From Thalassomonas viridans (GTDB taxonomy: Bacteria > Pseudomonadota > Gammaproteobacteria > Enterobacterales > Alteromonadaceae), in assembly GCF_000948985.2 (NCBI RefSeq), contig NZ_CP059734.1, positions 496,001 through 560,000 on the forward strand: 64,000 bases of DNA, read 5' to 3'. The stretch's first letter is position 1; every line of letters starts with the position of its first letter. The position numbers were made by a program, and so were the translations under genes. Positions 12,293-59,001 of the stretch are shown one piece after another. The notes beneath the pieces were generated by a model. The model did no database searches. It was not told where the DNA came from and saw only the letters and a program-made list of their open reading frames with translations.

Positions 12293-13219
12293 CTATTGTC
12301 CCGGGTGGTTATTAACCACCAGGAGCCTTTTTTTCAGCTTGTACAGCATATGCCGGGTTTTTTTGAAAGAGATCAGATAATGCATCAGGCTCAGCACTGC
12401 CGGCTTATTGAGTTTCCATTCGTTTATCCGGGAATTCCAAAAGAAGGCCACTGAGGCGTTCCAGTCCTTGCCCTGGGTGATATGTGCCCAGTGCAGGGGA
12501 ATAAAGACTGCATCTCCCGGGTTGAGCACCAGATCTATATATTCCGCCTTGCTGCTCTCGGGGAAGCTGGCTTCGTCTATGCCGGTAATATTGGGAAAGG
12601 TATCCCGGTTATGGTGATAAAAGTTGATCTTGCTGCGGTTGTAATAGGCGGTATAGACCTTGAAAGGGCTGAGTTTGCTAAATTGCGAAGGAGGATAAAG
12701 CCTGACATGCTTTTGTCCCTGTACCTGGCATAACATCGCCTGCCTGAAGGCATGATAATGTCCCACGCACTGGGTATTTCTACCCAGTATGACATAGCTG
12801 TCTGCCGGAGCTACAGACTCCATCAAAGGGCCGTGGGGCAAGTCATCTTCCGGCTGAGGGGTATCGGCCAAACGGCGGAAGCCTTTCATATCATAGCCGG
12901 CGATATGCAAACCGGGTTTGTCGGCGTCGGCATCTATGCAATCTTCGATGATCTCATGTATGCCCCGCGGCGGATACACTTCGATATCGCGGTAAACGAT
13001 AGACGGTCCTTTGGGCAACAGCCTGGACTGGGCAAGAAAATCCTTATAGGGCTTTAACATGTCTGCCAGGTACCGGGGGGACCAGCGTTTGACTGCCGGC
13101 CAGTGGTGATTTAATTGCCTGAACAGGATCGGCTGACAGGCCTTTTGGTGTTGCTTTAACTGCCGGATTTGTTCGCTCAGTTCTGTTTGCTGTGCATCAA
13201 TTTCTACTATATTCATCAT
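12293..13219 (-). CDS. JmjC/cupin_8-like oxygenase, copy 1
   Basis: Last gene of the minus-strand operon. I chose the internal ATG at 13219 because it gives 308 residues, the length of copy 2, and removes a 13-residue unconserved extension. Family features are the first metal-binding strand GHYHAFRQAMLCQVQGQKHV, LYPPS, and the second histidine in HWAHITQGKDW. JmjC/cupin_8 proteins normally bind Fe(II) with an HxD...H triad and hydroxylate proteins or small molecules using 2-oxoglutarate. Here the expected Asp is His (HYH), as in both tandem paralogues. Activity is therefore uncertain: it could be an oxygenase with a three-histidine site or a changed function. Probable role: oxidative tailoring of the cluster product. 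Confidence 0.75.
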   Translation of the reverse strand: MMNIVEIDAQQTELSEQIRQLKQHQKACQPILFRQLNHHWPAVKRWSPRYLADMLKPYKDFLAQSRLLPKGPSIVYRDIEVYPPRGIHEIIEDCIDADADKPGLHIAGYDMKGFRRLADTPQPEDDLPHGPLMESVAPADSYVILGRNTQCVGHYHAFRQAMLCQVQGQKHVRLYPPSQFSKLSPFKVYTAYYNRSKINFYHHNRDTFPNITGIDEASFPESSKAEYIDLVLNPGDAVFIPLHWAHITQGKDWNASVAFFWNSRINEWKLNKPAVLSLMHYLISFKKTRHMLYKLKKRLLVVNNHPGQ

Positions 13220-13326
13220 TATTAATCGTTTTCTTTGTCTTAGGGTTAAGACAGTCATGTGTTTTTTCGGGCAAAAAAGCTTTTGTATCCAAGCGCTTTT
13301 GCCCTATGTTTAGCGCCTTTTTCTGG

Positions 13327-14253
13327 CTAGCTTATCTGGCGGGACAAGCGTTTCATCCGCCGGTAGCCTTTTATTTTCCCGACCAGGGTAAACGGGAAGG
13401 CAACCAGCTTGATCGGGTAGCGCGCCAGGGTGCGTATCGCCGGGTAGTTGCATCCCCATTCGCGCCAGCGGGCTTTCCAAAAATACGCCATGGAGACGTT
13501 CCAGTCTTTGCCTTGGGTGACATGGGTCCAATGGACAGGAATAAATAAGGCATCCCCCGGGTTGAGTACCAGATCCCTGTACCTTGCCTTGGCTGCTTCG
13601 GGATAGCGTTGGACATCCATGCCCCGGGTGTTGGGGAAGTCCTGACGGTTATGCTGGTAAAAATTGATTTTACAGCGGCTGAAATGCTTGCTGAAAATAC
13701 TGAACCCCTGGAGTTTGCCAAACTCCGAAGGCGGGTATAGGCGGACATGTTTCTGCCCCTGCATCTGGCATAAAAGTGCCTGTAGTTCGGGGTGGAAATG
13801 TCCAACACACTGGGTATTGCGTCCCATAAAGAGTTCGCCGTAGTCCGGATTGATCGCCTGCAACAGCGGGGACTGGGGAGCATCCTGTTCAAGGTAATGC
13901 AGCCGGGTCATGCGCATGCCGGGGACGTAGATTTCCCTGGCTTTATCTTCGGGGTCAATACAGTCGGCCACTATCTCGCTAATGGGCTGAGGCGCCATAG
14001 TAATGTCTTTATAGCTGATATTCTCCGTGCCGACCGGGGTATGGCGCCGCGGTGATATGACGTCGCCCTCGTTTTTGATCATTTGGTGAAAATATTCCGG
14101 GGTCCAGCGTTTCAGGGCTTTGGCATCCAGGTTTAGTCCGCGGATCAACACCGGCTGGCAGCTGTTGATATAGCGATCTAATTCTTTTTTACTGCAGCCG
14201 GCATCGGTTTCAAACAAAACCAGCTCAGGTGCAGGGCTCGTTTCTTGTGTCAT
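13327..14253 (-). CDS. JmjC/cupin_8-like oxygenase, copy 2
   Basis: A 308-residue paralogue of its two neighbours. The start at 14253 has a GGAG box 9 bases upstream. The cupin core is visible as NTQCVGHFHPELQALLCQM, then GQKHVRLYPPS, and a distal PVHWTHVTQGKDWNVSMAYF. The normal HxD iron motif reads HFH. A conserved N-terminal region (QPVLIRGLN; RRHTPVGTENISYKDI; VADCIDPEDKAREIYVPGMR) is shared with copy 3 and more weakly with copy 1. It lies 20 bp from copy 3 and is probably co-transcribed with the PAPS and diaminopropionate genes. Probable Fe-dependent tailoring oxygenase; the substrate is unknown. Confidence 0.78.
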   Translation of the reverse strand: MTQETSPAPELVLFETDAGCSKKELDRYINSCQPVLIRGLNLDAKALKRWTPEYFHQMIKNEGDVISPRRHTPVGTENISYKDITMAPQPISEIVADCIDPEDKAREIYVPGMRMTRLHYLEQDAPQSPLLQAINPDYGELFMGRNTQCVGHFHPELQALLCQMQGQKHVRLYPPSEFGKLQGFSIFSKHFSRCKINFYQHNRQDFPNTRGMDVQRYPEAAKARYRDLVLNPGDALFIPVHWTHVTQGKDWNVSMAYFWKARWREWGCNYPAIRTLARYPIKLVAFPFTLVGKIKGYRRMKRLSRQIS

Positions 14254-14273
14254 CTTGGGTTGCTCCGTGGTTG

Positions 14274-15209
14274 CTATTTGGGCATTTTGGCCGTGCGTGA
14301 CTGTTTCGACAGCAGGGCCAGGCGAAAAAGTGTATACAGGCGGGCAGGTATGCTAAAAGGAAACCTCAGAGTTTTTATCGGGTAGCTCATCAGGGTCCGT
14401 ATGGCCGGGCCATTGACTTTCCAGTCGCGCAGGCGGGCCCGCCAGAAATAAACCATAGAGACATTCCAGTCCTTGCCCTGGGTGACATGGGTCCAGTGAA
14501 TGGGGATAAAGAGCGCATCTCCGGGTTCAACTACCACGTCTATGCATTGGGCGCGGACGGCGTCCGGATAGCGATGGGGATCTATGCCCCGGGTATTGGG
14601 AAAGTCCTGGCGATTGTGCTGGAAATAATTGATTTTCGAGCGGTTAAAGTACTTGGTAAAGGCGCTGAAAGGGCTTAATTTATTCAGCTGTGAAGGGGGA
14701 TATAACCTGACATGCTTTCGCCCCTGCATCTGGCATAACAGCGCCTGGGAATCCCGGTGGAAATGCGCAACGCACTGGGTGTTGCGGCCCATAAAGACTT
14801 CGCCGTACACGCCGGCAATATCCCTGAGCAGGGATGTCCTGGGGGCATCCTGCTCCATGTATTGCAGGTTGCGCATCCTTATCCCGGGAACATAGATCTC
14901 TTTGTCGGGATCTTCCGGATCTATGCAATCCGCCACGATTTCACTGATGGGTTGGGGCGCCAGGGTGATATCTTTAAAATTGATTTTTTGGCTGCCGACC
15001 GGGGTGAGCCGCCTGGGAGAGATCACATCGCCGTTTTTTTTGATCATGTCAAAAAAGTATTCCGGCGTCCAGCACCCTATGGCCCTGGCGCCTTTGTTCA
15101 GGCCGCGTATGATCACCGGCTGGCCATTGCTCAGGTGCTTATCCAGTTCCCGGGGGGTGAATGAGCTGTCACCCTGGTGCAATGCTAAGGCATTTTTTAT
15201 CTGTTTCAT
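14274..15209 (-). CDS. JmjC/cupin_8-like oxygenase, copy 3
   Basis: A 311-residue paralogue and the first of the three tandem JmjC genes in transcription order. Its ATG overlaps the TGA of cysQ (ATGA, 15206-15209), which implies translational coupling to the sulfate-activation genes. Core motifs are VAHFHRDSQALLCQMQGRKH, RLYPPSQ and PIHWTHVTQGKDWNVSMVYF; HFH again replaces the canonical HxD. Copies 2 and 3 are closer to each other than to copy 1, consistent with stepwise tandem duplication. Possible jobs include hydroxylation of an amino-acid side chain or of the azetidinone ring, but nothing in the sequence fixes the substrate. Confidence 0.78.
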   Translation of the reverse strand: MKQIKNALALHQGDSSFTPRELDKHLSNGQPVIIRGLNKGARAIGCWTPEYFFDMIKKNGDVISPRRLTPVGSQKINFKDITLAPQPISEIVADCIDPEDPDKEIYVPGIRMRNLQYMEQDAPRTSLLRDIAGVYGEVFMGRNTQCVAHFHRDSQALLCQMQGRKHVRLYPPSQLNKLSPFSAFTKYFNRSKINYFQHNRQDFPNTRGIDPHRYPDAVRAQCIDVVVEPGDALFIPIHWTHVTQGKDWNVSMVYFWRARLRDWKVNGPAIRTLMSYPIKTLRFPFSIPARLYTLFRLALLSKQSRTAKMPK

Positions 15210-15961
15210 AAAGGAGCCCTTACGAAGTGGAGATCATTTCGACTGGCGATAAAATGATTGTTGACTAAATTTTCTTTGTTGTAGGTCAGCGGCTTTGCGG
15301 TGACGACATCGATAAGTTTACAGCCGGCTTCATTGGCTATGATATGGCTGGCGGCCGTGTCCCATTCCTTGGTGCCGTTCAGGCGCGGGTAAACATCTAT
15401 GACACCTTCCGCCAGTTTGCAGATTTTTATCGAAGAGCCGAACCGGGTGATCCGGGTAATCTTGTGGGCGGCAAAAAACTCGCTGACCAAAGGGGTCGAG
15501 TGAAAGATGCTGTCGCTGGCGATCAAGTCCCGGCGCTGCGACCGGTTGATGATGCGCCGGCCATTTTTAAAGGCGCCGCTATTTTTTTCAGCATAATAAA
15601 CATCTCCCGTCACCGGCAGCAGCACAACCCCGAGCACGGGCTGACGGTTTTCCATCAAGGCGATATTGACGGTAAAGCCGTCATTTTTGGCGATAAAGTC
15701 CTTAGTGCCGTCCAGCGGATCCACCAGCCAGTATTTTTGCCAGTGCCGGCGCTGCGCATACGCCACCGGTGATTCTTCGGTTAATACCGGATAACCGCCT
15801 ATCCCGGCTAACCCGGCGATAATAATATCATTGGCGGCCAGATCCGCCCGGGTAACCGGCGATGCATCCGCTTTTTGCCCGACGGTAAAGTCGCCCCGGT
15901 GATAAACCTCTAATATGGCCTGCGCCGCCTGTTGAGCGACCCGGATCACTGAATCTATCAT
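15206..15961 (-). CDS. cysQ: 3'(2'),5'-bisphosphate nucleotidase (CysQ-like)
   Basis: A 251-residue inositol-monophosphatase-superfamily enzyme. The metal-binding motifs are present: LTEESP, WLVDPLDGTKDF (DPLDGT), and the distal WDTAASHIIANEAG. CysQ hydrolyses 3'-phosphoadenosine 5'-phosphate (PAP), the inhibitory by-product of PAPS-dependent sulfotransferases, to AMP. Its start overlaps the pyruvate-kinase-like gene by ATGA (15958-15961), and its stop overlaps the next JmjC gene. Being encoded beside ATP sulfurylase, APS kinase and a sulfotransferase strongly implies PAP removal during heavy sulfation rather than general sulfur assimilation. Confidence 0.92.
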   Translation of the reverse strand: MIDSVIRVAQQAAQAILEVYHRGDFTVGQKADASPVTRADLAANDIIIAGLAGIGGYPVLTEESPVAYAQRRHWQKYWLVDPLDGTKDFIAKNDGFTVNIALMENRQPVLGVVLLPVTGDVYYAEKNSGAFKNGRRIINRSQRRDLIASDSIFHSTPLVSEFFAAHKITRITRFGSSIKICKLAEGVIDVYPRLNGTKEWDTAASHIIANEAGCKLIDVVTAKPLTYNKENLVNNHFIASRNDLHFVRAPL

Positions 15962-16923
15962 GGGTATCGGGTCTCGTTTGCTATTTCGTTCATCAGTTTC
16001 ACTATAGTATCCAGGCAGGCCTTGGGGTGCTGGCCGATGGCCGTTTCTTCGGACATCTGTACCCCGTAAATGCCGCTGCGCAAGGTATTGTACATATCGA
16101 TCACCTCAGGGATGGTCGGCACGGGATGGATTTCCATGTTTTTCAGAAACTGGGTGGCCAGGAAGACTTTTTTATTATGGTAAAGGGCTTTGTTCACGAT
16201 AAAAGCCTGGAAGGCCGGAATTTTTTCCAGGCTTACCTCGGTTGACAAGTCTCCCCGGTCGATGAGGATATAGTCTACTTCCGCTAAAATCTCATTCAGG
16301 TGGTCAACGGCGGATTTTGTCTCTACTTTCGAGATAAGGGCGGTTTGCGGATTGATTACCTGCTTTGCTTCTTTGATATCGGCGGCATGGCGGACAAAGG
16401 AGAGGCCGACATATGCCAGCTGATGTTTGTTGGCCAGCCCGATCAGCGCCAGATCTTTTTCAAACAGGAAGGGCATGTCCTGATGGATGCCGCGAACATG
16501 CATGCCTTTGTTGTTGTGCAGCTCCCCGGTGGAATGAGACATAAAACGTATAACCTGGCGCCCGGTATCTATGTGGTCAACGACAAAGTGGAAAATGGAG
16601 TCATTGGCCCATACCTGATCGCCTACCTGAATATGCCGGTAAAAGTCGGTGTAGTTGGTTTGTTCAAAGGCCAGTTCGAAGGTCTCCCCTTTAACCAGCT
16701 TGACCGGACTGGCCAGATTGGCTGTCCTGATCTTGTTGCCCGGCAGATCCATCAGGATCTCGGCATCCGGCACCTGCTCCCGTATGGTAAGAATATAGTT
16801 TTCAATGTCGGCCAGGGTGCCATGGGCGCCATTGATGCGGTAGATATTGCGTTCGTGGTGTACTTGTGTCAGGGGCACCCGGTGCAACAGGGAAGGGCCG
16901 ACAGTGGCTATGATCTTCTTCAT
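15958..16923 (-). CDS. Short pyruvate-kinase-like protein (321 aa)
   Basis: The sequence follows the pyruvate kinase TIM barrel but is 321 residues rather than the usual roughly 470, and the C-terminal allosteric domain is absent. Retained motifs are KKIIATVGPS at the N-terminus, MDLPGNKIRT, ALISKVET with the catalytic Lys, IDRGDLSTEV with the metal-binding region, ATQFLKNME, and MSEETAIGQHP. Changes from consensus are RINGAHG in place of NFSHG and DLPGNK in place of DTKGPE. It lies between sat (4 bp) and cysQ (ATGA overlap). Pyruvate kinase makes ATP from PEP and ADP, so it could regenerate ATP for the two ATP-consuming steps of PAPS synthesis. A different phosphoenol or phosphoryl reaction is also possible. 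Confidence 0.82.
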   Translation of the reverse strand: MKKIIATVGPSLLHRVPLTQVHHERNIYRINGAHGTLADIENYILTIREQVPDAEILMDLPGNKIRTANLASPVKLVKGETFELAFEQTNYTDFYRHIQVGDQVWANDSIFHFVVDHIDTGRQVIRFMSHSTGELHNNKGMHVRGIHQDMPFLFEKDLALIGLANKHQLAYVGLSFVRHAADIKEAKQVINPQTALISKVETKSAVDHLNEILAEVDYILIDRGDLSTEVSLEKIPAFQAFIVNKALYHNKKVFLATQFLKNMEIHPVPTIPEVIDMYNTLRSGIYGVQMSEETAIGQHPKACLDTIVKLMNEIANETRYP

Positions 16924-16927
16924 GATA

Positions 16928-17998
16928 TTATTCCGTAATAAATTTATGTTGTTTCAGGCTGATAATGGCATCAGCCACTTCTTTTCTCATCAAACGCTCG
17001 CCGGGGCGCTGATCTTGGGCCAGCATGGCGCGGATCTTGGTGCCGCTGATGCTTTCCCGCTCACTGTGCGGGTGGGCGCAGGTATTATCCGAGACGATTT
17101 GTTCGCATTTATGGCAATAAAACGGCTCTTTCAGCAGCAATAAGGTGATGCCCAGATCATGTTTGGCCATCAGTTTTCTTGCCAGGTCATGGGCTTCGTA
17201 TTTGCCGTAATAATCCCCGACGCCGGCATGATCCCGGCCGATAATAAAATGGCTGCAGCCGAGGTTGCGCCGTATGATGGCGTGAAAAATGGCTTCCCTG
17301 GGCCCGGCATATCGCATCGGGGTCTTTAAGGTGTCCAGGTGAACCCTTAAACCGCAATAATACTCGTCCAGCATTGCCCGGTAGCCGTTGACCACGGCGG
17401 TTTCGCTAAAGTCCCCGGCTTTCTTCCAGCCCACCAGGGGATTGATAAACAGGCCGTCGCAGGTTTCCAGCGCAACCCGCTGCAGGTATTCGTGGGCTTT
17501 ATGCACCGGATTGCGGGTTTGAAAGCCGGCGACGCTTTTCCAGCCCTGCGCTTTAAAGAAATTACGGGTCTTTTCCGGGGTCAGGGCCCCTTCCTGCACC
17601 TGGGGTTCGGTGATCACGACTTTGCCCCCCACCCGGTACGGCTGGCGGCTGTGCTCCCTGGCGACGCCGGGATGGGCGAGATCCCCGGTATTAAAGACCT
17701 TGATGGTGTCGGCGGCAATGTCCACCTGATAACAGTCCGCAATTTCGATAAAGCCGATTTCACGGTCCTGATAACGCAAATACAACCTGGGCACATGCTG
17801 GCTAAGCCGGTAAGTCTCGGGATCGACATCTAAACTTATGGGTATGGTCCAGGGCTCGCCGCTGGTTAACTGCATCTTGTCGGTGACGCCCCGGTAGTCT
17901 GATGCCTTCATAAACCCGGTCAGGGGGGCAAATAAGCCGGTGGCCAGATTGATACAATCCTGCAGTGCTTCCGGGGTGAGTGAAGTGCTATTTTTCAT
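16928..17998 (-). CDS. sat: ATP sulfurylase (single-chain Sat type)
   Basis: A 356-residue sulfate adenylyltransferase that makes adenosine 5'-phosphosulfate (APS) from sulfate and ATP. Diagnostic motifs are the nucleotide-binding QTRNPVHKAHEYLQR (about residues 160-174), INPLVGWKKAGDF, and GRDHAGVGDYYGKYEAHDL (about 258-276). A zinc-ribbon-like FYCHKCEQIVSDNTCAH follows, then GTKIRAML. This is the homomeric Sat family, not the CysD/CysN heterodimer common in gammaproteobacterial assimilation, so it is probably a pathway-dedicated copy. It overlaps cysC by 11 bp and is followed 4 bp later by the pyruvate-kinase-like gene. Confidence 0.95.
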   Translation of the reverse strand: MKNSTSLTPEALQDCINLATGLFAPLTGFMKASDYRGVTDKMQLTSGEPWTIPISLDVDPETYRLSQHVPRLYLRYQDREIGFIEIADCYQVDIAADTIKVFNTGDLAHPGVAREHSRQPYRVGGKVVITEPQVQEGALTPEKTRNFFKAQGWKSVAGFQTRNPVHKAHEYLQRVALETCDGLFINPLVGWKKAGDFSETAVVNGYRAMLDEYYCGLRVHLDTLKTPMRYAGPREAIFHAIIRRNLGCSHFIIGRDHAGVGDYYGKYEAHDLARKLMAKHDLGITLLLLKEPFYCHKCEQIVSDNTCAHPHSERESISGTKIRAMLAQDQRPGERLMRKEVADAIISLKQHKFITE

Positions 17999-18500
17999 GG
18001 TGAAAACCTTTTTGTAACAATGACTTTAGCCTGGCGAAGGAATCATCGACGCTTTCCTTATCCACATCGAGCACCAGTTCATTGCTTAGCGGCGGCTCGA
18101 ATGTCATGTCTACCCCCACCAGGGGAGTTTTATTCATATGGTCTTTATAAATATTTTTAACGTCATTTGTCCGGGCGTGCCGGATGTCCTTACGCAGGTA
18201 AACTTGCTGGTAATTATCGAATTTTTGCCGGGCGAAACGGCGTAAATCTTCAAAAGGCGAGATGTTGCACACTATGGGGATAATGCCGTTTTGTTCCAGC
18301 ACACGGGCGGCGAGCATGATACGCTTGATGTTGTGGCGCCTGTCCGGCGGGCTATAGCCGAGATCATTGTCGTAAAAGTCCCGCACGAGATCGCCGTCGA
18401 GGAGAAAGGACTTGATTCCCTGCGCATCGCAGTAGCTTTTGAGCCTGTTGCCCAGGGTGGATTTACCTGCACCCGAGACACCCAATAACCAGATAACCAT
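17988..18500 (-). CDS. cysC: Adenylylsulfate (APS) kinase
   Basis: A 170-residue P-loop kinase that phosphorylates APS to PAPS, the sulfonate donor for sulfotransferases. The Walker A motif GVSGAGKSTLGNRL is near the N-terminus; LLDGDLVRDFYDNDLGYSPPDRRHNI is the CysC-type substrate loop, given here only as the DGD..R..LGYS..DR.HNI pattern; VCNISPFEDLRR follows. The ATG at 18500 overlaps the TGA of the upstream permease gene by one base; a GTG one codon earlier is also possible. With Sat it forms a complete two-gene PAPS generator directly coupled to the sulfotransferase operon. Confidence 0.94.
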   Translation of the reverse strand: MVIWLLGVSGAGKSTLGNRLKSYCDAQGIKSFLLDGDLVRDFYDNDLGYSPPDRRHNIKRIMLAARVLEQNGIIPIVCNISPFEDLRRFARQKFDNYQQVYLRKDIRHARTNDVKNIYKDHMNKTPLVGVDMTFEPPLSNELVLDVDKESVDDSFARLKSLLQKGFHHEK

Positions 18501-19213
18501 CACAGAACCCCCTTGTAGATCAACATGGAACCCGAAAAAAATAAAAAGCCGGCAAACAGGGTGTCGTATTGCTGGCTCGGAATTTTACGATAGACCAGCC
18601 CTTCGGTCAGGATAAAAACCAGGCTGCCGATCAAGACATAATAAAGATTAAAATCCCCCAGCTGGTCCAGCGAGGCCAGGGTCAGCAACTGGAACAGGGC
18701 AAATGTCAGATATGACAGGCTAATGGTGGCCCTTTTTTCCGGTTTGCTGATCTTGAGGCTGAAAACTTTAGAGGTCAGCAATGAGCCGCCCAGGTTGGTG
18801 AGGCCATGGACAATGCCCTGGAGGAGCAAAAAGCTTTTCTCAAACCTAAACAGGTAACCGATGCCTTTTTCCACCCGGGCGGAAAAGGCTTTCAGGGAAA
18901 TCAGCAGCAAAAAGAGACCGATAACAAAGGACACATTGACCGCCATGGTCACGGTAAAAGCGAGCAGCAGCACTATCGGGGGAACCGAGTAGAGCAGCAG
19001 CCGGCGATAAAAGGCAAAATGAATATGTTTTTGCCCGCCGATCACCTGCAGCAGGTTAATGGTCAGGGAAATTGGCAATAAAGTGGCCAGTGTCGGTACA
19101 AAGGGGTAGCCGAACATCAGCAGTAAAGGTGTGCCGAACAGCAGCACACCCACGCCAAAAACAGATTGAATTACTGACGTAACAACAATGACGAGAACCA
19201 GGGGTAAATCCAT
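18500..19213 (-). CDS. TauE/SafE-family membrane permease
   Basis: A 237-residue, strongly hydrophobic protein with about seven or eight predicted membrane segments. It begins with a TauE/SafE-like first helix (LVLVIVVTSVIQSVFGVGVLLFG, of which the SVFGVG turn is the family mark) and has the mid-repeat GIVHGLTNLGGSLL. Family members move sulfite, sulfonates or other organic anions, usually outward. The gene lies 2 bp after sbnB and overlaps cysC by one base. That position suggests either sulfate or sulfite movement for PAPS supply or export of a sulfonated intermediate; the direction cannot be decided from the sequence. Confidence 0.85.
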   Translation of the reverse strand: MDLPLVLVIVVTSVIQSVFGVGVLLFGTPLLLMFGYPFVPTLATLLPISLTINLLQVIGGQKHIHFAFYRRLLLYSVPPIVLLLAFTVTMAVNVSFVIGLFLLLISLKAFSARVEKGIGYLFRFEKSFLLLQGIVHGLTNLGGSLLTSKVFSLKISKPEKRATISLSYLTFALFQLLTLASLDQLGDFNLYYVLIGSLVFILTEGLVYRKIPSQQYDTLFAGFLFFSGSMLIYKGVL

Positions 19214-19215
19214 GT

Positions 19216-20184
19216 TTAGTCAAGCCGTGTGCCGATACCCGATGCGCTGGCGGCCTGGTAGAAGTGTACCGCAGTGGCAATATCAAACACCGCCATGCCC
19301 ATGGGGTTAAACATCACCACCTCATCGGCTGCCAGCCCCTTAAATGACTTTTCGCTGATCAGCTGCGGCAGGTTTAGGGTGTCTTCCTTGTCCAGCAGCC
19401 CCGCCAGGTGCATATTTTCCACATCGGTATTGTGGCGGCAGATCTCTTCCCAGTTATCCACCAGCATATGATCTACCTGGTGGCGAAACGCCGGCTGGTA
19501 ATCCCGTAAAGAAACATTCAGGTGCAAAGAGCCGGCCTTGGCTTCACCGTCAATATAACCTTTGGCTGAGGTGGTGGCTGTGATAAAGACGTCGGCGCCG
19601 TCAAAGGCCTGCTGCCAGCTGTCCACCGCTTTTATCTTGTCTTTTAGCGGGCTGTCGAACCCGCTTAAATCAACCCCGCGGGGGTCGAACACGGCAATGG
19701 TTTCAATCAGGTCCGGGCATATATCCGCCAGCATGGCGATATGGGTTTGTCCGATAACCCCGAAGCCGTTTAAGCCTATGGTTAACGCCCGGGCGCCGGG
19801 CCTGGCTTCAAGGAATTCTTCTATCACCAGGCCTGTCACCGCAGCGGTGCGCACCGCACTGATATAGGAGGTATTGATTATGGCTTCCACCACCCCGGTC
19901 TGGCTGTTGTTTAAAGCGGTTACCGACTGGGCGCGGGCGATTCCCCGGTCAATGTTGCCGGGAAAACTGGCGATCCATTTTATGCCGGCATAATCGACTT
20001 CCCCTCCCAGATGTGCCGGCATGGCGATAATCCGGTTGGGACTGTCCTTAAAAGTTACATAAGGCTTGATAGGCTGGCAAAAGTCTCCCTGGGCCAGCGC
20101 AAGACAGGCGTTGCGTATGCCCTGGATTATGGTGCGCCAGTCGTTGCCCATGGCAACTATGTTTTGATGTGAAAGGTATAACAT
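19216..20184 (-). CDS. sbnB: 2,3-diaminopropionate biosynthesis dehydrogenase SbnB
   Basis: A 322-residue ornithine-cyclodeaminase/mu-crystallin-family protein. The start at 20184 was chosen because an AGAGGA box lies 4-5 bases upstream; the longer frame would begin with TTG and no RBS. The Rossmann motif GLNGFGVIGQTHIAML and FDPRGVD are visible, and the N-terminal substrate motif KPYVTFKDSPNRIIAMPAHL is of SbnB type. In staphyloferrin B and related pathways, SbnB oxidatively cleaves N-(1-amino-1-carboxyl-2-ethyl)-glutamate with NAD to give L-2,3-diaminopropionate and 2-oxoglutarate. It pairs with sbnA just upstream and supplies L-Dap to the adjacent NRPS. Confidence 0.92.
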   Translation of the reverse strand: MLYLSHQNIVAMGNDWRTIIQGIRNACLALAQGDFCQPIKPYVTFKDSPNRIIAMPAHLGGEVDYAGIKWIASFPGNIDRGIARAQSVTALNNSQTGVVEAIINTSYISAVRTAAVTGLVIEEFLEARPGARALTIGLNGFGVIGQTHIAMLADICPDLIETIAVFDPRGVDLSGFDSPLKDKIKAVDSWQQAFDGADVFITATTSAKGYIDGEAKAGSLHLNVSLRDYQPAFRHQVDHMLVDNWEEICRHNTDVENMHLAGLLDKEDTLNLPQLISEKSFKGLAADEVVMFNPMGMAVFDIATAVHFYQAASASGIGTRLD

Positions 20185-20247
20185 GAAATCCTCTGTATTT
20201 TGACGGCGGATCGGCAAAAAGCCGAGCCGCCTGTGTTAGCCTGAAAA

Positions 20248-21207
20248 TTACTTCATCAGGGCCGGCAGGTCTGCCGCCCACTGTTTATTGTATATGGTGT
20301 CGATATAGGCTTCCCCCGAGTCGTGAACTAGGAAGAGAACCTTGTCCCGGGGGGAAATTTCCCGGCGCTCGATATATTTGCCTATGGCGCTGTAGTTGGC
20401 GCCGCTGGAGGCCCCCGCCATAATGGCCTGGTCGGCACGCAACCGGTGACAACCGTCAATGATATCCTGGTGGGAGACTATGATGTAATCGTCTATCCGG
20501 GCGCTGTCAAAGTGCTTGGTTCTCAGGCTGGCTCCCAGGCCGGAAACGAAGCGCTTTTTATCGCTGGTGGTAAAAATGGTGGAACCTTCGATATCCACGG
20601 CAATAACTTTAAGGTTCGGGTAATGGGCCTTTAACCGGGTGGATAAGCCGGTGATGGTGCCCCCGGTGCTGCAGGCGACAAATAAATAGTCGAGCTCTTC
20701 AAATTCAGAGATGATTTCCGGCGCCATATGGTCATAGTAGGCCTGGCGGTTATGTTCGTTTTCATACTGATTGGTCCAGACGCTGCCGGGGATTTCCCCC
20801 AGCAGCTGTTCGACTTTCGCCAGCCGGTTGAGCAGGTAACCGCCGGTATGGTCGCGTTCGGTGATCTTGATCACCTGTTCACAATACATCGCCAGTTTGG
20901 TTTCGTAAAACCGGTTGATATTCTTGTCAATAACAGGAATAAAGCGGATCCCCAGAAACTGGCACATGGCGGCGAGCGAAACCGCCAGGTTGCCCGAGCT
21001 GGACTCGACTATGGTGGAATCCCGGGTGATCTTCCCATTGAGGATCCCCTGATAGAGGATGTTGTAGGCGGCCCTGTCCTTGATGCTGTTGGAAAGTCCG
21101 TTGAATTCCAGTTTGGCAAAGATATCGATCTCTTTATGCGTGTCGATGCGCAGGACCTGGGTGTTGCCGACCAGGGAGCTGATGGAGTCTAATTTAGATA
21201 ATAACAT
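20248..21207 (-). CDS. sbnA: 2,3-diaminopropionate biosynthesis protein SbnA
   Basis: A 319-residue PLP-dependent enzyme of the cysteine synthase / beta-replacement family. The start at ATG 21207 matches the family N-terminus (LDSISSLVGNTQVLRI); the open frame extends a further 89 codons upstream but that segment overlaps the sulfotransferase gene and is not conserved-looking. The PLP lysine lies in NSIKDRAAYN, followed by VESSSGNLAVSLA and ACSTGGTITG (phosphate cup). SbnA condenses O-phospho-L-serine with L-glutamate, giving the intermediate cleaved by SbnB. Together they make L-Dap. The gene sits 40 bp after the sulfotransferase gene. Confidence 0.92.
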   Translation of the reverse strand: MLLSKLDSISSLVGNTQVLRIDTHKEIDIFAKLEFNGLSNSIKDRAAYNILYQGILNGKITRDSTIVESSSGNLAVSLAAMCQFLGIRFIPVIDKNINRFYETKLAMYCEQVIKITERDHTGGYLLNRLAKVEQLLGEIPGSVWTNQYENEHNRQAYYDHMAPEIISEFEELDYLFVACSTGGTITGLSTRLKAHYPNLKVIAVDIEGSTIFTTSDKKRFVSGLGASLRTKHFDSARIDDYIIVSHQDIIDGCHRLRADQAIMAGASSGANYSAIGKYIERREISPRDKVLFLVHDSGEAYIDTIYNKQWAADLPALMK

Positions 21208-21247
21208 ATGTTTGTCCGTAGATAAGTGTGACCGTATTGGCGGCCAC

Positions 21248-22102
21248 TTAACCTTGGGGGAGTGCCATACGGCGGTAAAGCAATTGGAGGCACCTGGATT
21301 TGATTCCCGGTTTTTCCGGTAAAAAATGCCGGTTGCGCCGTTTAAAGTGAGCAAACTGGTCCATAAACGGGCTGCCCAGCTGTTCGAGGCGCTGCTGGAA
21401 CAGCGCTTTGGCAAACCGGTAAAGTTCGACATCAAAGCGGTTGAGTTGCATGACCTCGGCCTGGGTTTGCTCACTTAACCCCTGGAAACCGAATTTGTTG
21501 CGGGCGACGCCTATTTTCTGGTAATAAGGGGTTTTCCAGCCCATGACCCTGGCCAGGTAAAAAACGGATAGCTCGAATTCCTCAGTGATGCCAAAGGCCC
21601 TGAACTTGTGCTCCAGGTTGTGTTTGGCCAGGTCCAGGTGCGCCTGTTCAACTTTTTGCGAGCGATCGCTAAACTCATGGCCGCTGAGCATTCTTACCTG
21701 AAAGTTATCAAGCTCGGTGGAGACATTGCTGGTGAGAAATTCATCGATAGTCACCCTGTCCTTAAGCAGCCATTGCTTGAGGTAGTGATTTTTTGCCCCC
21801 AGGGCATAAAAATAATAAGAAACCAGGCGGTTGACGGGCTCCCGGACAAAAGTCAGGTGAGAGGCCTGCGCCAGCGCCGGGTCAAAGCCAAAGCTGAAAT
21901 GGCCCTTGACCACCTGATAGCTTTGCTTCTGCCGGGGGGGCAGGGCGACAAAATCTTCAATGCTTTGGGTTGCGACATCTTCATTGTCATCGACATAGAA
22001 ATCTTTGATGCCTGCCTTGGCATAGTTCTGCTGCAGGATCGCACCGAAGTTATTGCCCGCCGTTCTCGGGATATGGACAAAAGCGATTTGTTGTTTGTTC
22101 AT
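21248..22102 (-). CDS. PAPS-dependent sulfotransferase (Sulfotransfer_2-like)
   Basis: A 284-residue soluble sulfotransferase. The 5'-phosphosulfate loop is AFVHIPRTAGNNF near the N-terminus, and the 3'-phosphate motif is LTFVREPVNRLVSYYFY at about residues 82-98. It has no signal peptide or membrane segment, unlike Golgi homologues, so it is cytosolic. It is encoded between the terminal NRPS (stop-to-start gap 13 bp) and sbnA, upstream of the PAPS-generating genes. In sulfazecin biosynthesis, a dedicated sulfotransferase N-sulfonates the carrier-bound diaminopropionyl residue before ring closure. I infer that role here from gene order; O-sulfation of another group is the alternative. Confidence 0.88.
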   Translation of the reverse strand: MNKQQIAFVHIPRTAGNNFGAILQQNYAKAGIKDFYVDDNEDVATQSIEDFVALPPRQKQSYQVVKGHFSFGFDPALAQASHLTFVREPVNRLVSYYFYALGAKNHYLKQWLLKDRVTIDEFLTSNVSTELDNFQVRMLSGHEFSDRSQKVEQAHLDLAKHNLEHKFRAFGITEEFELSVFYLARVMGWKTPYYQKIGVARNKFGFQGLSEQTQAEVMQLNRFDVELYRFAKALFQQRLEQLGSPFMDQFAHFKRRNRHFLPEKPGIKSRCLQLLYRRMALPQG

Positions 22103-22115
22103 GATAAGGACCTTC

Positions 22116-25100
22116 CTATTTACCTATGGCCATCAATAACTTGTCTTTGGCGGACAAGTTTTGGCTGCTCTGTGCCGCATCAAGCGTGTTTTGATAGATG
22201 GCCACCAGGGTTTCTGCCAGCTGCTGCGGGCAATCGCGCAGCAGGTAATGTCCCGCTCCCGGGTACTCTATCAAATGGACTGATTTGCATATTTGCAGCC
22301 AGTACTTATATTTGCGCTGGTAGCCGGCGGTCAGCTTATCTTGGGTGCCGGTAACGCAATAGACAGGCGCGTCAAGCACTTGCTGTTGCCGGGCGTTGAT
22401 CTGTGCCAGCTGGTTGTTGTAGAAAACCTGTGCCAGGTGAACGTCATATTTAAACTCCTGCAGGAAGAAGTTCAGCTCGGCGGCATTGTCGGTTAACGGG
22501 GCTCCCAGGGAGCGTAAAAAGTCGATGATTTGTTCATCCGAGCGTTCATCATCCCTGTTATGGCGGATACGCTGCAGGGCGCCGCCAATAACCAGGCCCC
22601 GGACTTCTATCCCCGATTGTTCCAGGCGGTTGGCGATAGCAATCGCCATCGCCGAGCCGTTACACTGGCCGTATATCACCAGGGGAGTGCTGATCTCCCT
22701 GCCGGCCCAGCCGGCGATCTCATCCGCCAGGCGGCTGATTTCTTCCGTCATTTCCCCGGCGCTGCCGACCGGGTTACGGGGCAGTGTCATGCCGTAAAAG
22801 TCGATTTCATCGCTTAGCCCGGCGACGGCCCGGGCGGTATCTAGGAAGCTGACGGGGTTACCGGCGGAGTTTGGCACCCCTATGACGGTTAACCGGGTTT
22901 CCCCCGGCTGCTCGACCAACTTGGTTAACAGCTGTTGCTGCAGCTGCTCTCCCTGGCTGTCAAGGAAACGGGCCAGCTCCCGTACGCTGGGATAGTCATA
23001 CAGGTGCACCACGGTTAATCCCCGGCCATATTTGGCGGCGATCTGGATGGCTTTGAAGGAATCCCCGCCGATACGGAAATAGTTGTCGGTTACGCCTATT
23101 TCCCGGTTGTCCAGGACCTGGCACCAGGTATCGAGCAGCTCTTGCTCTGTTTCGGTGGCGGCCTTGACCTGTTCAAAGTCCTGGCTATGGACGATTTCTA
23201 TGCTGCGTAGCGCACCGCGGTCGACCTTGCCGCTGTTGTTAAGCGGAAATTGCCGGTGTGACAGGTAATGGCTCGGCAGCATATAAAAAGGCAGGGTTTT
23301 GCGTAATTCGCCGGTGAGGAAATCGCCGTCTAATGTCCTATCGCTTTGAATATGCGCACATAAAAAGGTGTTGCCTTGCTCTGAACGGCAGTCAAGCACC
23401 ACGGCGCCTTTGACCCCGGGGATAGATTGCAGCTGGCCTTCGATTTCCTCCAGTTCGATACGGTGTCCGTGGACTTTGACCTGTTTGTCCTTGCGGCCGA
23501 AAAATTCGACCACGCCGTCGGGACGGAAGCGGCCGATATCGCCGGTTTTATAGTAACGCCCTTTATACCTGTCGGTAAAACCGCCGCTGCCGAAGGCAAG
23601 TGCGGTTTTTTCCGGGTCATTGATATAACCCCTGCCGACGCCTATACCTGTGACCAGGATTTCTCCCTTGACCCCGACAGGCAGCTCCCTGAGCTGTTCG
23701 TCGACAATATGGATATTGAAGTTTTTAAGCACTTTGCCTATGGGAACCGGGTTGATTTGTTCGCCGCCTGTCATCAGGTGGTGGGTGATATCGTCCGAAG
23801 CTTCCGTCGGGCCATAGGCATTAAACACGGGAATGGCGGGAAAACTGCCGAACCAGCGGTTTATCGTGTGCGCATCGACGGTTTCGCCGGTCACCATTAA
23901 AAACTTCAGTTGCTCAAAGTGTTGCCTGTCCTGCGGCAAAGTATCGAGCAGCAGCCCCATATAAGAAGGAACCACCTCTAAAATGGTGATGGCATCGTCA
24001 TTGATGCTGTCGATAAACCGGCGGATATCCAGCACTTTTTGCTGGTCATAAATATAGGTGGTGCCGCCTGAAATCAGGGCGCAAAACATTTGCCATACGG
24101 AAATATCAAAACTTTGCGAGGCGTTCTGCACCACCCGGGAGTTTTCATCTATTTGCAGATCTATGACCTTGTTGAGCATATGATTGAGGGCGCCGACATG
24201 CTCGATTTGCGCTCCCTTGGGCCTGCCGGTGGAACCTGAGGTGAAAATCACATAACTGAGGGCATCCGGCGGAACTTGCCGGTCCGGTAAGCGGCTGTTG
24301 TATTGCTCATCGTGTACGATTTGCGGGTCCAGCTCAGCGATCTGGCCCTGCCAGTTCAGCCGGCCAAGTTTGTCCTGCTGTTGCGGGCTGCACAGCAAGA
24401 TGTCGGCATCGGCATCCTGTAAAATGGCATCTATGCGTTCGGCAGGTAATTCCGGGTCGATGGGAATATAGCCGCTGCCCGTTTTCCAAACCGCCAGGAT
24501 ACTGGTGACCAGTTCGATCGATCTCGGTATCATCAGGGCGATGAGGGAGTCCTGGCGCTCCCCGCTTGTCTGTTGCAGCAGGTAGTCTGCCAGGCGGTTG
24601 GACTGGCTTTCCAGCTCGGCATAACTCAGGTGCCGGTCGTTGCAGACCAGGGCGGTTGCCGCCGGCCGCAGGCGGGCCTGTTCGCTGATCAATTGATGCG
24701 GACATAAGTCGGGTATTTCAAGTGTTCCCTGCTGATGCCACTGGCTTAACTGGCGGCGGTCTGCTTCACTGATAATATCGATCTCCGCCAGCGTTTGCCC
24801 CGGCGCCTCCACCATGGCGCAGATGATGGTTTTGAATCCGCCGATGAGGCGGTCAAAGTCCCGCTTAAGGTATTTTTCATCATCGAATTTTATGGTGATG
24901 CTGATATGCGTGCTGTTGACCACATCCAGGGTGATAGGGTAGTGGCTGTCTTCCTCCATAGTGTAGTTTTCCAGCCTTAACGCCTGGCGGCCATCGCCGC
25001 CGGAGCCGGGGCGGGGCATGTTTTCCACCACCAGCAGGGAGTCGAACAGGGGGATGCCGTTATCCAGGCCGCTTAATTCCGTTATCTTGTTCAGGGGCAG

Positions 25101-27551
25101 GTAGCTGTGGCTTTCCCTGTCAATATGCGCCTGGTGCAATTCAGCCAGCCATTGGCTCAGGGTCAACTGCGGCCGGATCGTCATGGCCACGGGGACGGTA
25201 TTCATAAACATACCCACCATAGACTCTATGCCGGGGATCTGGGAAGGCCTGCCTGAGGTGGTGGAGCCAAAGACCACTGTCTGTGCGCCGCTGTACCTGT
25301 GCAGCAGATAGCCCCAGGCCGCCTGCAAGACGACATTTAAGGTTGTCTTGTGCTGATGGGCGAGCCGGTTGATGGCCCGGCTTTGCTCCTGGTCGAATGT
25401 CAGGGTCTGGCTGATCTTTTGCCCGGTTTTATTGCTTGGCGGCAGCTCTATGTTTATTTTAGTGGGTTCGTCTATCTCTGCCAGTTGTGCCGACCAGTAC
25501 TTGCCCGCACTCCCGGCATCCTGCTGTTCGAGCCAGCGGACATAGAGTGAGGCGGGGGCAGCCGTTTCAACGGCTGAGCCCGTGTCCTGGTGGTATAGCT
25601 GCAATACCCGTTCAATCAGTAAAGGCACACTCCAGCCATCGAGTATGATGTGGTGGAAGGCCAGGTTGATTCTGTGGGTTTGTTCCTTGAGTTTGCCCGA
25701 GGTGAAACGGAGCAAGGGGCCGTCAGCCAGGTTAAAAGGCGGCAGGTCGCGGATGATGTCTGCAAATGCTTCGTCTTGCTGCGCCGGCGCCCTGGCAGAC
25801 AGATCATATTCGTCAACCGGGATTTCGCCCGCCGTCAAAATGATCTGGTGTATGGTTTCACTGTTAATATCGCTGAACCGGGTTCTCAGGGCGCTGTGGC
25901 CCGCCACCAGACGTGCAGCCGCCCGCCTGAAGCGGGCGACATCGAAATCACCGACAATATCCAGCGAAGTATTAATGGTATAGGCGTTATTGTCGAGTAA
26001 GCTGTGGAAGTACATGCCGTGTTGCAGCGGCGTGATGCGGTGGATGGCTTCGACCTGGTTATATTGGCTTATCACCCGGGTTAACTGCTGCTGGGTTAAA
26101 GAAACATCCAGATCGCTTGTATACCAGGCCAGCTGGGGACCGGCGCTGAGCAGGCTTATCATTTGTCTGGCAGCTTGTTCGAGTTCCCGTTCAAACTGTG
26201 CCGCGTCCAGGCCAAAGCCGCTAACGACGAAAGAGAGCTGCCGCTCGCTTAACCGGCAGTCCAGGGTGGTTGCCGGCAGATAAGGCAATACCAGGCTATC
26301 TGCCTCGGCCAAGTGCTGCTCTGCAAGGGAGACCTCCGCATATGCCTCCGTCAGGTCGCTGCAGCTTAATTTGATGCAGTTGCCGGCGATGGCGAAACTG
26401 CTCTCCTGTTGCAGCCAGTGGGATAAAGCCGCGCCATCTTGCGGCTGTTGTGCTTTTTTTTGTTTCAGCTGCTGCAGCTGGCCCGACAGCGAGCTGGCCG
26501 GTGGAGCAGACAGGCACAGCGGGTAGCCAAAATCGAGGGCGGCGGCGGTATGGCGAAAGTCTACCGAATGAAAAGGCAGCTTCCTGGCTTTACCGTACTG
26601 GTAAAGCATCACCTCTTCGCAGCCGTTTACCTGCCTTACGGTATGGCTGACAATTGCCGCGGCAAACTGCTGCAAACTGGTTTTTGCCTGTTCCAGCTGC
26701 TGTTTTAACCCGGAAGCATCAAGGTCGAGGTCGACCCGGCAGCTTTTCGCCGGGGGCGGGGCGCTGGCGGGAGTCAAGTTGCCTGCTTGCCCCTGGTGTG
26801 CCCGCCACCGGGATTCGCCATCGGCGGGCAAGGCTTCTTCCTGAGCCAGGGCCCAGTGGCTCTCGGCTGTTGACGGCGATACCGGCTGTTCCAGGCCGCT
26901 GAAGACCGAGCTGATGCGCTGCCTGAATAATGCCAGGGCAGGCACATCCGCCTGTAACACATGCAAGGCAAAAACCAGGGTTAGTTGTTGTGCCCGGGGA
27001 TAAACAACCAGCCTGAACAGGGGCTGTCCCCCGAATGTTGCGGCGCTGAGTTGCTGCTGCAGCTGTGTCAAATCCGGCCGGCCTTCATCCGTGCTGATGA
27101 CCTGGCGGAGAAAGTTATCGTCAAGGGGCAGATATTCTCCCCGATAGCCGTCTTCAACCCGGGTGACGGCCAGGCGCAAGGCATCGGCATGGCGAATCAC
27201 CTGGCTGAGCTTTTCGGCTATGGCTGCCTGGCTCTGTTGTTGGCGCAGGGTAAATGCCAGCAGATGATACTGTCCCAAATGACATGATGAAGGCTTTGCC
27301 AGGGCGTCCAGTAACTTCAGCTGTTCCGGGCGAAACTCATACCGGCCTGCGGCCGGGGAGGTCTGTTGCAGGAAGCCGGATAACTCGCTGTGTTCAAGCA
27401 TAGCCATCAGCCTGGGCTTATGGTTTTTTAAGGCGGCCACCAGCTCCGGGTTCAGGGCATTGGCGGGGGCATCTACATTCAGTTTTTGCTGATTTTTTTT
27501 AATAATGACCTTGCGAGCGGTCAACTGGTCCAAAATGGGCAAAATGCTCAT
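22116..27551 (-). CDS. Terminal NRPS: TubC docking, degenerate E-like, C, A(diamine), T, TE(Cys)
   Basis: A 1811-residue protein starting at ATG 27551 with a GGAG box 8 bases upstream. Domains by residue: TubC-type docking (1-55); a condensation/epimerisation-superfamily domain (about 60-475) whose HHxxxDG reads LHVLQAD; DCL-type C opening RITPLQHGMYFHSL with HHIILDGW near 633 (500-930); A (965-1450); T with FRIGGDSF (1480-1550); thioesterase (1560-1811). The A-domain pocket reads DIWEMTADD, resembling codes reported for 2,4-diaminobutyrate, so a short diamine such as Dap is likely. The TE nucleophile motif is YGQCNGS with Cys1630 in place of Ser; GTQDKL and GAGHYLL supply Asp and His. Cys-type TEs are known in sulfazecin and obafluorin systems, where they close strained four-membered rings. 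It is co-encoded with SbnAB, the sulfotransferase and PAPS genes. Confidence 0.9.
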   Translation of the reverse strand: MSILPILDQLTARKVIIKKNQQKLNVDAPANALNPELVAALKNHKPRLMAMLEHSELSGFLQQTSPAAGRYEFRPEQLKLLDALAKPSSCHLGQYHLLAFTLRQQQSQAAIAEKLSQVIRHADALRLAVTRVEDGYRGEYLPLDDNFLRQVISTDEGRPDLTQLQQQLSAATFGGQPLFRLVVYPRAQQLTLVFALHVLQADVPALALFRQRISSVFSGLEQPVSPSTAESHWALAQEEALPADGESRWRAHQGQAGNLTPASAPPPAKSCRVDLDLDASGLKQQLEQAKTSLQQFAAAIVSHTVRQVNGCEEVMLYQYGKARKLPFHSVDFRHTAAALDFGYPLCLSAPPASSLSGQLQQLKQKKAQQPQDGAALSHWLQQESSFAIAGNCIKLSCSDLTEAYAEVSLAEQHLAEADSLVLPYLPATTLDCRLSERQLSFVVSGFGLDAAQFERELEQAARQMISLLSAGPQLAWYTSDLDVSLTQQQLTRVISQYNQVEAIHRITPLQHGMYFHSLLDNNAYTINTSLDIVGDFDVARFRRAAARLVAGHSALRTRFSDINSETIHQIILTAGEIPVDEYDLSARAPAQQDEAFADIIRDLPPFNLADGPLLRFTSGKLKEQTHRINLAFHHIILDGWSVPLLIERVLQLYHQDTGSAVETAAPASLYVRWLEQQDAGSAGKYWSAQLAEIDEPTKINIELPPSNKTGQKISQTLTFDQEQSRAINRLAHQHKTTLNVVLQAAWGYLLHRYSGAQTVVFGSTTSGRPSQIPGIESMVGMFMNTVPVAMTIRPQLTLSQWLAELHQAHIDRESHSYLPLNKITELSGLDNGIPLFDSLLVVENMPRPGSGGDGRQALRLENYTMEEDSHYPITLDVVNSTHISITIKFDDEKYLKRDFDRLIGGFKTIICAMVEAPGQTLAEIDIISEADRRQLSQWHQQGTLEIPDLCPHQLISEQARLRPAATALVCNDRHLSYAELESQSNRLADYLLQQTSGERQDSLIALMIPRSIELVTSILAVWKTGSGYIPIDPELPAERIDAILQDADADILLCSPQQQDKLGRLNWQGQIAELDPQIVHDEQYNSRLPDRQVPPDALSYVIFTSGSTGRPKGAQIEHVGALNHMLNKVIDLQIDENSRVVQNASQSFDISVWQMFCALISGGTTYIYDQQKVLDIRRFIDSINDDAITILEVVPSYMGLLLDTLPQDRQHFEQLKFLMVTGETVDAHTINRWFGSFPAIPVFNAYGPTEASDDITHHLMTGGEQINPVPIGKVLKNFNIHIVDEQLRELPVGVKGEILVTGIGVGRGYINDPEKTALAFGSGGFTDRYKGRYYKTGDIGRFRPDGVVEFFGRKDKQVKVHGHRIELEEIEGQLQSIPGVKGAVVLDCRSEQGNTFLCAHIQSDRTLDGDFLTGELRKTLPFYMLPSHYLSHRQFPLNNSGKVDRGALRSIEIVHSQDFEQVKAATETEQELLDTWCQVLDNREIGVTDNYFRIGGDSFKAIQIAAKYGRGLTVVHLYDYPSVRELARFLDSQGEQLQQQLLTKLVEQPGETRLTVIGVPNSAGNPVSFLDTARAVAGLSDEIDFYGMTLPRNPVGSAGEMTEEISRLADEIAGWAGREISTPLVIYGQCNGSAMAIAIANRLEQSGIEVRGLVIGGALQRIRHNRDDERSDEQIIDFLRSLGAPLTDNAAELNFFLQEFKYDVHLAQVFYNNQLAQINARQQQVLDAPVYCVTGTQDKLTAGYQRKYKYWLQICKSVHLIEYPGAGHYLLRDCPQQLAETLVAIYQNTLDAAQSSQNLSAKDKLLMAIGK

Positions 27552-27696
27552 TATATTATCTCCAGAGCATTTTGGCCCTGTGCGGGAAAATGCCACGATA
27601 TTCTCTTTGTTGCGCCGGCGGATGGTGCCGGACGCTTGATTTATATGGTTGAAGGTGAAATTAACCGCCTAATCCTGTCCGGTTAAGCAATGACTT

Positions 27697-28557: not shown

Positions 28558-28569
28558 ATCTGCATAACC

Positions 28570-56444: not shown

Positions 56445-56519
56445 GGAAAGGGCTTTGCTTTATCCGGGCTGTGTTTTCTTGTCCCGGCGCTTGGCGGGAC
56501 AGTTATTTTGGAGAGCTTG

Positions 56520-58943: not shown

Positions 58944-59001
58944 TGAAAACGATAACCCCAGCCGATTATTTACCGATTAGAGTGACAGAAGGAAAACCCA
59001 G

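Follow-up and report, generated by a model that had tools for sequence, protein, structure and literature searches.

Among described monobactam pathways, that of sulfazecin is the closest to the locus studied here; its sulfonation, chain transfer to Cys and ring closure have been reconstituted, according to the text of PMC11298585, where the C2818A and C2818S variants of SulM served as controls. The sulfazecin cluster of Paraburkholderia acidicola ATCC 31363 includes SulG, SulH, SulI, SulM, SulN, SulO and SulP. Beta-lactam-forming thioesterases (TEs) are recognized in the same report by an Asp at position II, a Gln-Cys-Asn (Q-C-N) motif and positive residues at two of three Arg positions, with an L-2,3-diaminopropionate (Dap) code in the last adenylation (A) domain and a sulfotransferase gene as further criteria (Patel 2024, PMC11298585). 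Here, we analyzed 64,000 nucleotides of Thalassomonas viridans DNA (the window; bases 496001-560000 of contig C2, NZ_CP059734.1), from a 7.95 Mb genome in 2 contigs (C1 and C2). We predict with high confidence that a minus-strand operon at window positions 12293-29415 forms the beta-lactam end of an N-sulfonated monobactam, a confidence that covers the module and not the line feeding it. The gene set very probably builds a new monobactam-type antibiotic by the sulfazecin route in a different bacterial lineage.

The operon encodes a one-module terminal nonribosomal peptide synthetase (NRPS). Gene identities were assigned by Pfam and NCBIfam profile searches with curated cut-offs, and the NRPS was divided as follows (window positions; residues in the numbering of the 1826-aa open reading frame, ORF).

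22116-27551, minus strand: terminal NRPS, 1811 aa (Pfam); the database form starts at 27551, and the ORF, running to 27596, has 1826 aa
27393-27536, minus strand: TubC_N (beta-hairpin) docking domain (Pfam PF18563, residues 21-68, 25 bits against a cut-off of 26)
26097-27392, minus strand: domain before the condensation (C) domain, about 430 residues (~69-500), with no Pfam match
24747-26039, minus strand: C domain (Pfam, residues 520-950; HHIILDG motif)
23187-24686, minus strand: A domain, code DIWEMTADD (Pfam)
22962-23144, minus strand: carrier (T) domain (Pfam, residues 1485-1545)
22206-22874, minus strand: TE with a Q-C-N nucleophile (Pfam; structure-sequence match; criteria residues; tree)
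22662-22664, minus strand: codon of the catalytic Cys1645 (GQCNGSA)

The T-TE region was compared with the sequences of solved structures. The best match was the peptidyl carrier protein-TE didomain of SulM (8w2d, E-value 6.2e-72), followed by the SulM TE (8w2c) and then by ObiF1 of the obafluorin pathway (E 2.3e-35). In the alignment, the nucleophile motif reads GQCNG, and the equivalents of Q2817, C2818 and N2819 (SulM numbering) are kept. The window TE also holds the equivalents of R2849, D2856 and R2858 and carries Arg at 2854, where SulM has Lys, so that all three Arg positions (2849, 2854 and 2858), taken from the residues named in the text of PMC11298585, are positive. The catalytic Asp at position II (D2926) and the His (H2956) are likewise present. 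A Cys-nucleophile TE had been proposed in a preliminary description of this DNA, and Cys1645 within GQCNG is that residue.

We then placed the TE in a tree of 48 of the 90 proteins found in one search plus ObiF1; most of the 42 left-out proteins aligned with the carrier domain, roughly a fifth of the query. Thirty-five Q-C-N rows, the window included, formed one side of a branch with support 98/96, and ObiF1 fell outside. Within this clade, the window TE paired with that of Pseudoalteromonas sp. MMG013 (support 100/99), and the pair was sister to 25 SulM-like rows from Burkholderia, Agrobacterium, Chromobacterium and others (99/93 for the 27). The TE thus groups with SulM and not with ordinary TEs, as the preliminary description had anticipated. 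Long branches and an atypical amino-acid composition of the window row were flagged by the tree program, which makes clade membership surer than the exact branch depth. Moreover, the TE profile at E 1e-30 matched only 1 of 369 genomes of the class, its own, and chance is therefore no issue for this observation.

The A domain points in the same direction. Its code, DIWEMTADD, equals DVWEMNADD of SulM module 3 at 7 of 9 positions under the same extraction, the nine positions being those that we take to be the Stachelhaus positions. Module 3 of SulM is reported to activate Dap (PMC11298585). Over 1345 aa, the C-A-T-TE part is 38.9% identical to SulM module 3, and it is 38% identical to the Chromobacterium subtsugae counterpart by tblastn. 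Over its whole length, the NRPS is 42% identical to a protein of Pseudoalteromonas sp. MMG013 (P0004). In a whole-NRPS search of 59 genomes (its own and relatives), 56 matched, and among the matches listed only its own protein spans the NRPS end to end.

The remaining genes of the operon are listed below.

12293-13258, minus strand: Cupin_8/JmjC-like oxygenase candidate 3 (Pfam; 42-46% identity to candidates 1 and 2)
13327-14253, minus strand: Cupin_8/JmjC-like oxygenase candidate 2 (Pfam; 64% identity to candidate 1)
14274-15209, minus strand: Cupin_8/JmjC-like oxygenase candidate 1 (Pfam; HFH...H motif)
15206-15961, minus strand: CysQ, 3'-phosphoadenosine-5'-phosphate (PAP) phosphatase (TIGR01331, 248.6 bits, cut-off 228.8)
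15958-16923, minus strand: short pyruvate kinase without the C-terminal domain (Pfam pyruvate kinase barrel)
16928-17998, minus strand: Sat, ATP sulfurylase (NF003166, 426.4, cut-off 387)
17988-18503, minus strand: CysC, adenosine-5'-phosphosulfate kinase (Pfam; TIGR00455, 119.9, under the cut-off of 138.7)
18500-19213, minus strand: TauE/SafE permease, possibly for sulfate or sulfite transport (Pfam PF01925, 47.3 bits)
19216-20217, minus strand: SbnB-type dehydrogenase for Dap (TIGR03944, 289.8, under the cut-off of 326.9)
20248-21207, minus strand: SbnA-type Dap synthase (TIGR03945, 349.3, just under 349.95)
21248-22102, minus strand: SulN-type sulfotransferase using 3'-phosphoadenosine-5'-phosphosulfate (PAPS) (Pfam Sulfotransfer_2; 43% to SulN)
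27697-28557, minus strand: choline-kinase/APH-like kinase (Pfam; GntI model E 3.5e-35, under the cut-off)
28570-29415, minus strand: SulP-type methyltransferase (43% to the sul-locus methyltransferase)

The named genes mostly overlap or sit fewer than 70 bases apart, and the kinase and methyltransferase lie upstream of the NRPS with a 100-145-base gap between. The ORF of SbnA (20248-21474) overlaps the sulfotransferase gene, and its start is likely the Met at 21207. The coordinates and the Pfam and NCBIfam matches agree with the preliminary description of a run of consecutive, mostly overlapping or closely spaced minus-strand genes. Its bounds, 12293-27551, enclose real genes and left out the SulP-type methyltransferase and the kinase; the genes that it listed are present, and within the same bounds it did not name the short pyruvate kinase and the TauE/SafE permease, which lie there together with the three Cupin_8 proteins. 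Its SbnA, SbnB, Sat, CysC and CysQ were assigned as such by Pfam or NCBIfam, with SbnA, SbnB and CysC scoring under the curated cut-offs.

We compared 55 genes of the extended region by tblastn with the sul locus (L026) and the Chromobacterium subtsugae locus, both with flanks. L026, which codes for a 2984-aa NRPS, is unannotated, and the names SulN, SulO and SulP were assigned in it from content, order and PMC11298585; that report gives the length of SulM as 2984 aa. The window sulfotransferase is 43% identical to SulN and 45% to the C. subtsugae homologue, and it lies directly downstream of the NRPS, as SulN directly follows SulM. As far as sequence can tell, both the diamine-like A pocket and the sulfotransferase put forward in the preliminary description are supported. 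The methyltransferase is 43% identical to the presumed SulP and 49% to its C. subtsugae homologue. Identities to the sul-locus and C. subtsugae counterparts were 34% and 30% for SbnA, 32% and 31% for SbnB, and 31% (to a sul-locus stretch) and 34% for CysC. A SulN-type sulfotransferase was also found fused at the C-terminus (residues 2459-2713) of the NRPS P0027, whose TE falls in the same clade; this part, 33% identical (E 6e-45), was the sole match among 43 proteins tested. As a control, the sulfotransferase was searched in the 369 class genomes, its own included: 20 matched at E 0.001 and five, again with its own, reached E 1e-20 or below, the top match from another genome being 32% identical.

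The PAPS side is unusually complete: the genes for the permease, CysC, Sat, the short pyruvate kinase and CysQ follow one another with overlaps or end to end. The short pyruvate kinase belongs to a family of ~320-residue proteins, for which 1478 relatives were found; named sources among the best 120 of these include Sulfurimonas and Arcobacter. At E 1e-50, it was matched in its own genome only among the 369. That it recycles ATP is a guess.

The comparison with ObiF1 bears on another reading, in which the TE product would be a beta-lactone or macrocycle, with the sulfotransferase sulfating a hydroxyl elsewhere, in an ObiF-like manner. ObiF1, whose product has a four-membered ring (PMC11298585), is the next structural relative after SulM and shares the Cys nucleophile and the Asp at position II with the window TE, and the polyketide synthase (PKS) of the assembly line to the right (line Z, see below) has a further sulfotransferase domain. 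However, the ObiF1 motif is H-C-A, equivalents of Arg2849 and Lys2854 are absent from it, and it stands outside the Q-C-N clade, whereas the window operon combines the Dap-like A code with Dap genes and a SulN relative. We rejected a beta-lactone or macrocycle TE on the motif, the Arg positions and the tree, and regard this reading as very improbable.

The domain preceding the C domain was also considered. It is present in the Pseudoalteromonas sp. MMG013 protein, and the two-row alignment, compared by hhalign with four single C or epimerization (E) domains, gave probabilities of 0.2-8.3, the best E-value (0.004) being against the module's own C domain. A domain without an identified fold, together with three homologues under curated cut-offs, might suggest that the module is a decayed relic, with Dap and PAPS being used for other residues in the neighboring lines. 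Yet the ORF is open, all compared TE residues are kept, and at 42% identity the arrangement recurs in the distant Pseudoalteromonas protein, which makes a relic most improbable.

The preferred reading is thus that of an N-sulfonated monobactam module, and the preliminary description most likely had both the genes and the chemistry right. Gene content, homology, active-site residues, A code and phylogeny are read directly from the sequence; from these we infer all reactions, the methoxy group, the identity of the upstream peptide and the product. In this scheme, SbnA and SbnB would supply Dap, and the last NRPS module would activate it and join it to a peptide from a partner line through TubC_N docking. 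Sat and CysC would make PAPS and CysQ would clear PAP; ADP may be recycled by the short pyruvate kinase. The SulN-type sulfotransferase would use PAPS to sulfonate the beta-amine of Dap on the carrier. The chain would then be taken by the cysteine of the Q-C-N TE, and attack of the N-sulfo amine on the thioester would yield a 1-sulfo-azetidin-2-one. After hydroxylation by an operon cupin or another oxygenase, the SulP-type methyltransferase probably adds a methoxy group.

Several observations weigh against this scheme. SbnA (by 0.65 bits), SbnB and CysC fall under their curated NCBIfam cut-offs. None of the 55 genes in the tblastn comparison matched SulO (TauD), and the genome's five TauD matches are confined to C1; the three cupins or the PhyH protein at 46729-47514 are candidates for the place of SulO. 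A beta-lactamase is part of the sulfazecin and isosulfazecin clusters, as described in PMC5472815. The only two Beta-lactamase2 matches of the T. viridans genome lie on C1, other beta-lactamase classes not having been searched. With only ~39% identity to SulM and a window lineage that branches deeply and with good support, the module may also catalyze a changed reaction.

For the Cupin_8 fold, H-x-D is the usual metal motif. The three related Cupin_8 proteins at 12293-15209 read H-x-H at this place.

We further examined which assembly line could feed the module. Two large lines flank the operon.

C2:475498-508032 (window -20502 to 12032): line Y (left), an NRPS/PKS line with amidase and exporter
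113-9205, plus strand: last NRPS of line Y (gene from C2:493038, upstream of the window; 4055 aa; three modules)
31960-56444, plus strand: line Z (right), consisting of NRPS, NRPS, PKS with a sulfotransferase domain, and NRPS, with no TE
56508-60747, plus strand: penicillin-amidase-family acylase and ABC exporter of line Z, paralogues of the line Y pair

Line Y runs from an NRPS with an AMP-ligase start, which looks fatty-acyl-type (by eye and from a sub-threshold Pfam match), through a PKS, a penicillin-amidase-family protein, an ABC exporter and an NRPS module to the three-module NRPS, which has an E domain after its second module, no TE and an acidic C-terminal tail. Line Z with its acylase and exporter (31960-60747) is a related set but starts with another A-T module; the PKS, amidase and exporter pairs of the two lines are 38%, 47% and 46% identical, and the last protein of line Z also has an acidic C-terminal tail. 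The monobactam TE is the genome's only PF00975 match between C2:463,925 and C2:585,774, so both lines are without a TE of their own. We take the codes of the two A domains with a luciferase-like insert to be Gly-like, and those of the final two A domains in line Y to be Ser-like. No other compared A domain carries the code of the upstream SulM module, the code of SulI not being part of this comparison.

Other features of these lines were recorded. A domains in 37203-44975 and in the 113-9205 gene are interrupted between motifs A4 and A5 by a luciferase-like monooxygenase. In the segment 45570-47514, the PhyH oxygenase is accompanied by another protein, in which a sulfotransferase-like P-loop can be made out by eye, and the PKS at 47536-53079 ends in its sulfotransferase domain. 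At each junction between a line and the operon lies one of two distantly related proteins (9262-10680 and 29955-31352; 23% identity) with no Pfam match, which look by eye like ATP-grasp-type ligases.

Beta-hairpin docking domains bind short C-terminal motifs, as described in PMC13324335 and PMC6195595. The C-terminal ends are EEERELLEI in line Y and DDETEVFAF in line Z, neither with an obvious partner by eye, and three other acidic tails in the region precede a gene with a TubC_N-like start (by eye). Because both of these tails are without a partner and the module starts with TubC_N, the donor could be line Y, line Z or both. A different arrangement is quite possible, if short of an even chance: the same module would still make a beta-lactam but serve a short free-standing peptide or another locus, and Y and Z would make separate acylated peptides. 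The operon runs opposite to both lines, each line owns an amidase and an exporter, and several Q-C-N relatives are one-module proteins by length (~1170-1500 aa), all of which would suit this arrangement. On the other hand, neither line has its own TE, the sole PF00975 match in the stretch is the TE of the module, the module begins with a docking domain and needs a donor, and the acidic tails of the last Y and Z proteins are without an obvious partner.

A bolder version of the monobactam reading, which we consider unlikely, is that the portable module docks through its beta-hairpin domain onto both TE-less, paralogous lines and caps each with an N-sulfo-azetidinone. Two peptidyl monobactams would result, one or both of them N-acylated, and after export the dedicated penicillin-amidase-family enzymes would remove the acyl group, all beside a bulgecin-like potentiator cassette. 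If so, two-line docking would be natural combinatorial beta-lactam biosynthesis, and the inactive acyl form would be self-protection.

The cassette in question (C2:560009-564771), just right of the window, combines a split transketolase with an asparagine-synthase-like protein and a reductase-like protein of 360 aa. Counterparts of both transketolase halves (47% and 48% identity) and of the 360-aa protein (29%) stand next to one another 3.7 kb beyond SulN. The 360-aa protein was found in 3 of 185 class genomes, its own included, each with a transketolase N-half frame of 282-290 aa on the same contig. Other short transketolase frames of 42-47% identity occur without the 360-aa protein, so transketolase identity alone is not specific. 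P. mesoacidophila makes isosulfazecin and bulgecin, and a transketolase route to the bulgecinine core has been suggested as one possibility (PMC5472815). Given this suggestion and the presence of the cassette beside both loci, both monobactam loci may have a bulgecin-like potentiator for a neighbor. Against it stand the SerC-like and CysD-like genes downstream of the sulfazecin cluster, unmatched by the 55 tested genes at E 1e-3, and the two other cassette genomes, which lie within the 369-genome draw and are without a Q-C-N TE. We dropped as support for bulgecin a 58% match between the glycosyltransferase at C2:566745-567548 and one flanking the sulfazecin cluster, because this identity is unspecific: among the best 120 of 430 relatives, all but its own were 58-82% identical and came from scattered bacteria.

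To see how far the locus is represented elsewhere, we turned to wider collections. With the NRPS as query, a plasmid collection gave 908 records, the sulfotransferase gave 29 and the pyruvate kinase 142, and among the places listed none reached 60% identity. A near-identity DNA search with 24 kb returned 2 records only, with matches of ~100 bases, and one scan of genome contigs gave 2 loci. Searches of the open-access literature returned no description of a monobactam cluster from this lineage.

Should the operon function as proposed, it would be a transplantable beta-lactam-forming cap, complete with docking domain, sulfotransferase and a source of PAPS. Monobactams resist zinc beta-lactamases. 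With fatty acyl, polyketide, Gly-like and Ser-like parts in the possible upstream chains, the monobactams formed would differ from sulfazecin.

Taken together, the window shares with the sulfazecin cluster a terminal C-A-T-TE with Q-C-N, the Dap code, a SulN beside the NRPS, a SulP-type methyltransferase, Dap genes, PAPS genes and a neighboring transketolase cassette. It differs in that the module is a separate one-module protein with a TubC_N docking domain, in having its own PAPS-supply genes, standing alone with the pyruvate kinase and CysQ, and in carrying three cupins, with no SulO-type oxygenase found nearby. The upstream Glu and Ala modules of sulfazecin (SulI and SulM modules 1-2) are not matched in the window, whose NRPS has one module, and two large TE-less paralogous PKS/NRPS lines flank the operon instead. 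Of other Q-C-N systems, the Pseudoalteromonas sp. MMG013 NRPS (P0004) is the tree sister and has the same domain order, docking and pre-C domains included; PF18563 is among the Pfam domains listed for it, and the docking domains of the two proteins align. The EM5400 NRPS of Agrobacterium (P0018) shares the Q-C-N TE but belongs to another sub-branch and has a different NRPS length, and the same holds, with other sub-branches and lengths, for Flexibacter ATCC 35208 (P0032) and Chryseobacterium sp. G0240 (P0036); the clusters of these three are described as monobactam or likely beta-lactam in PMC11298585 and PMC9248904. The class of system is therefore known, and what is new here is the missing SulO, the lineage, the two TE-less flanking lines and the stand-alone docking module.

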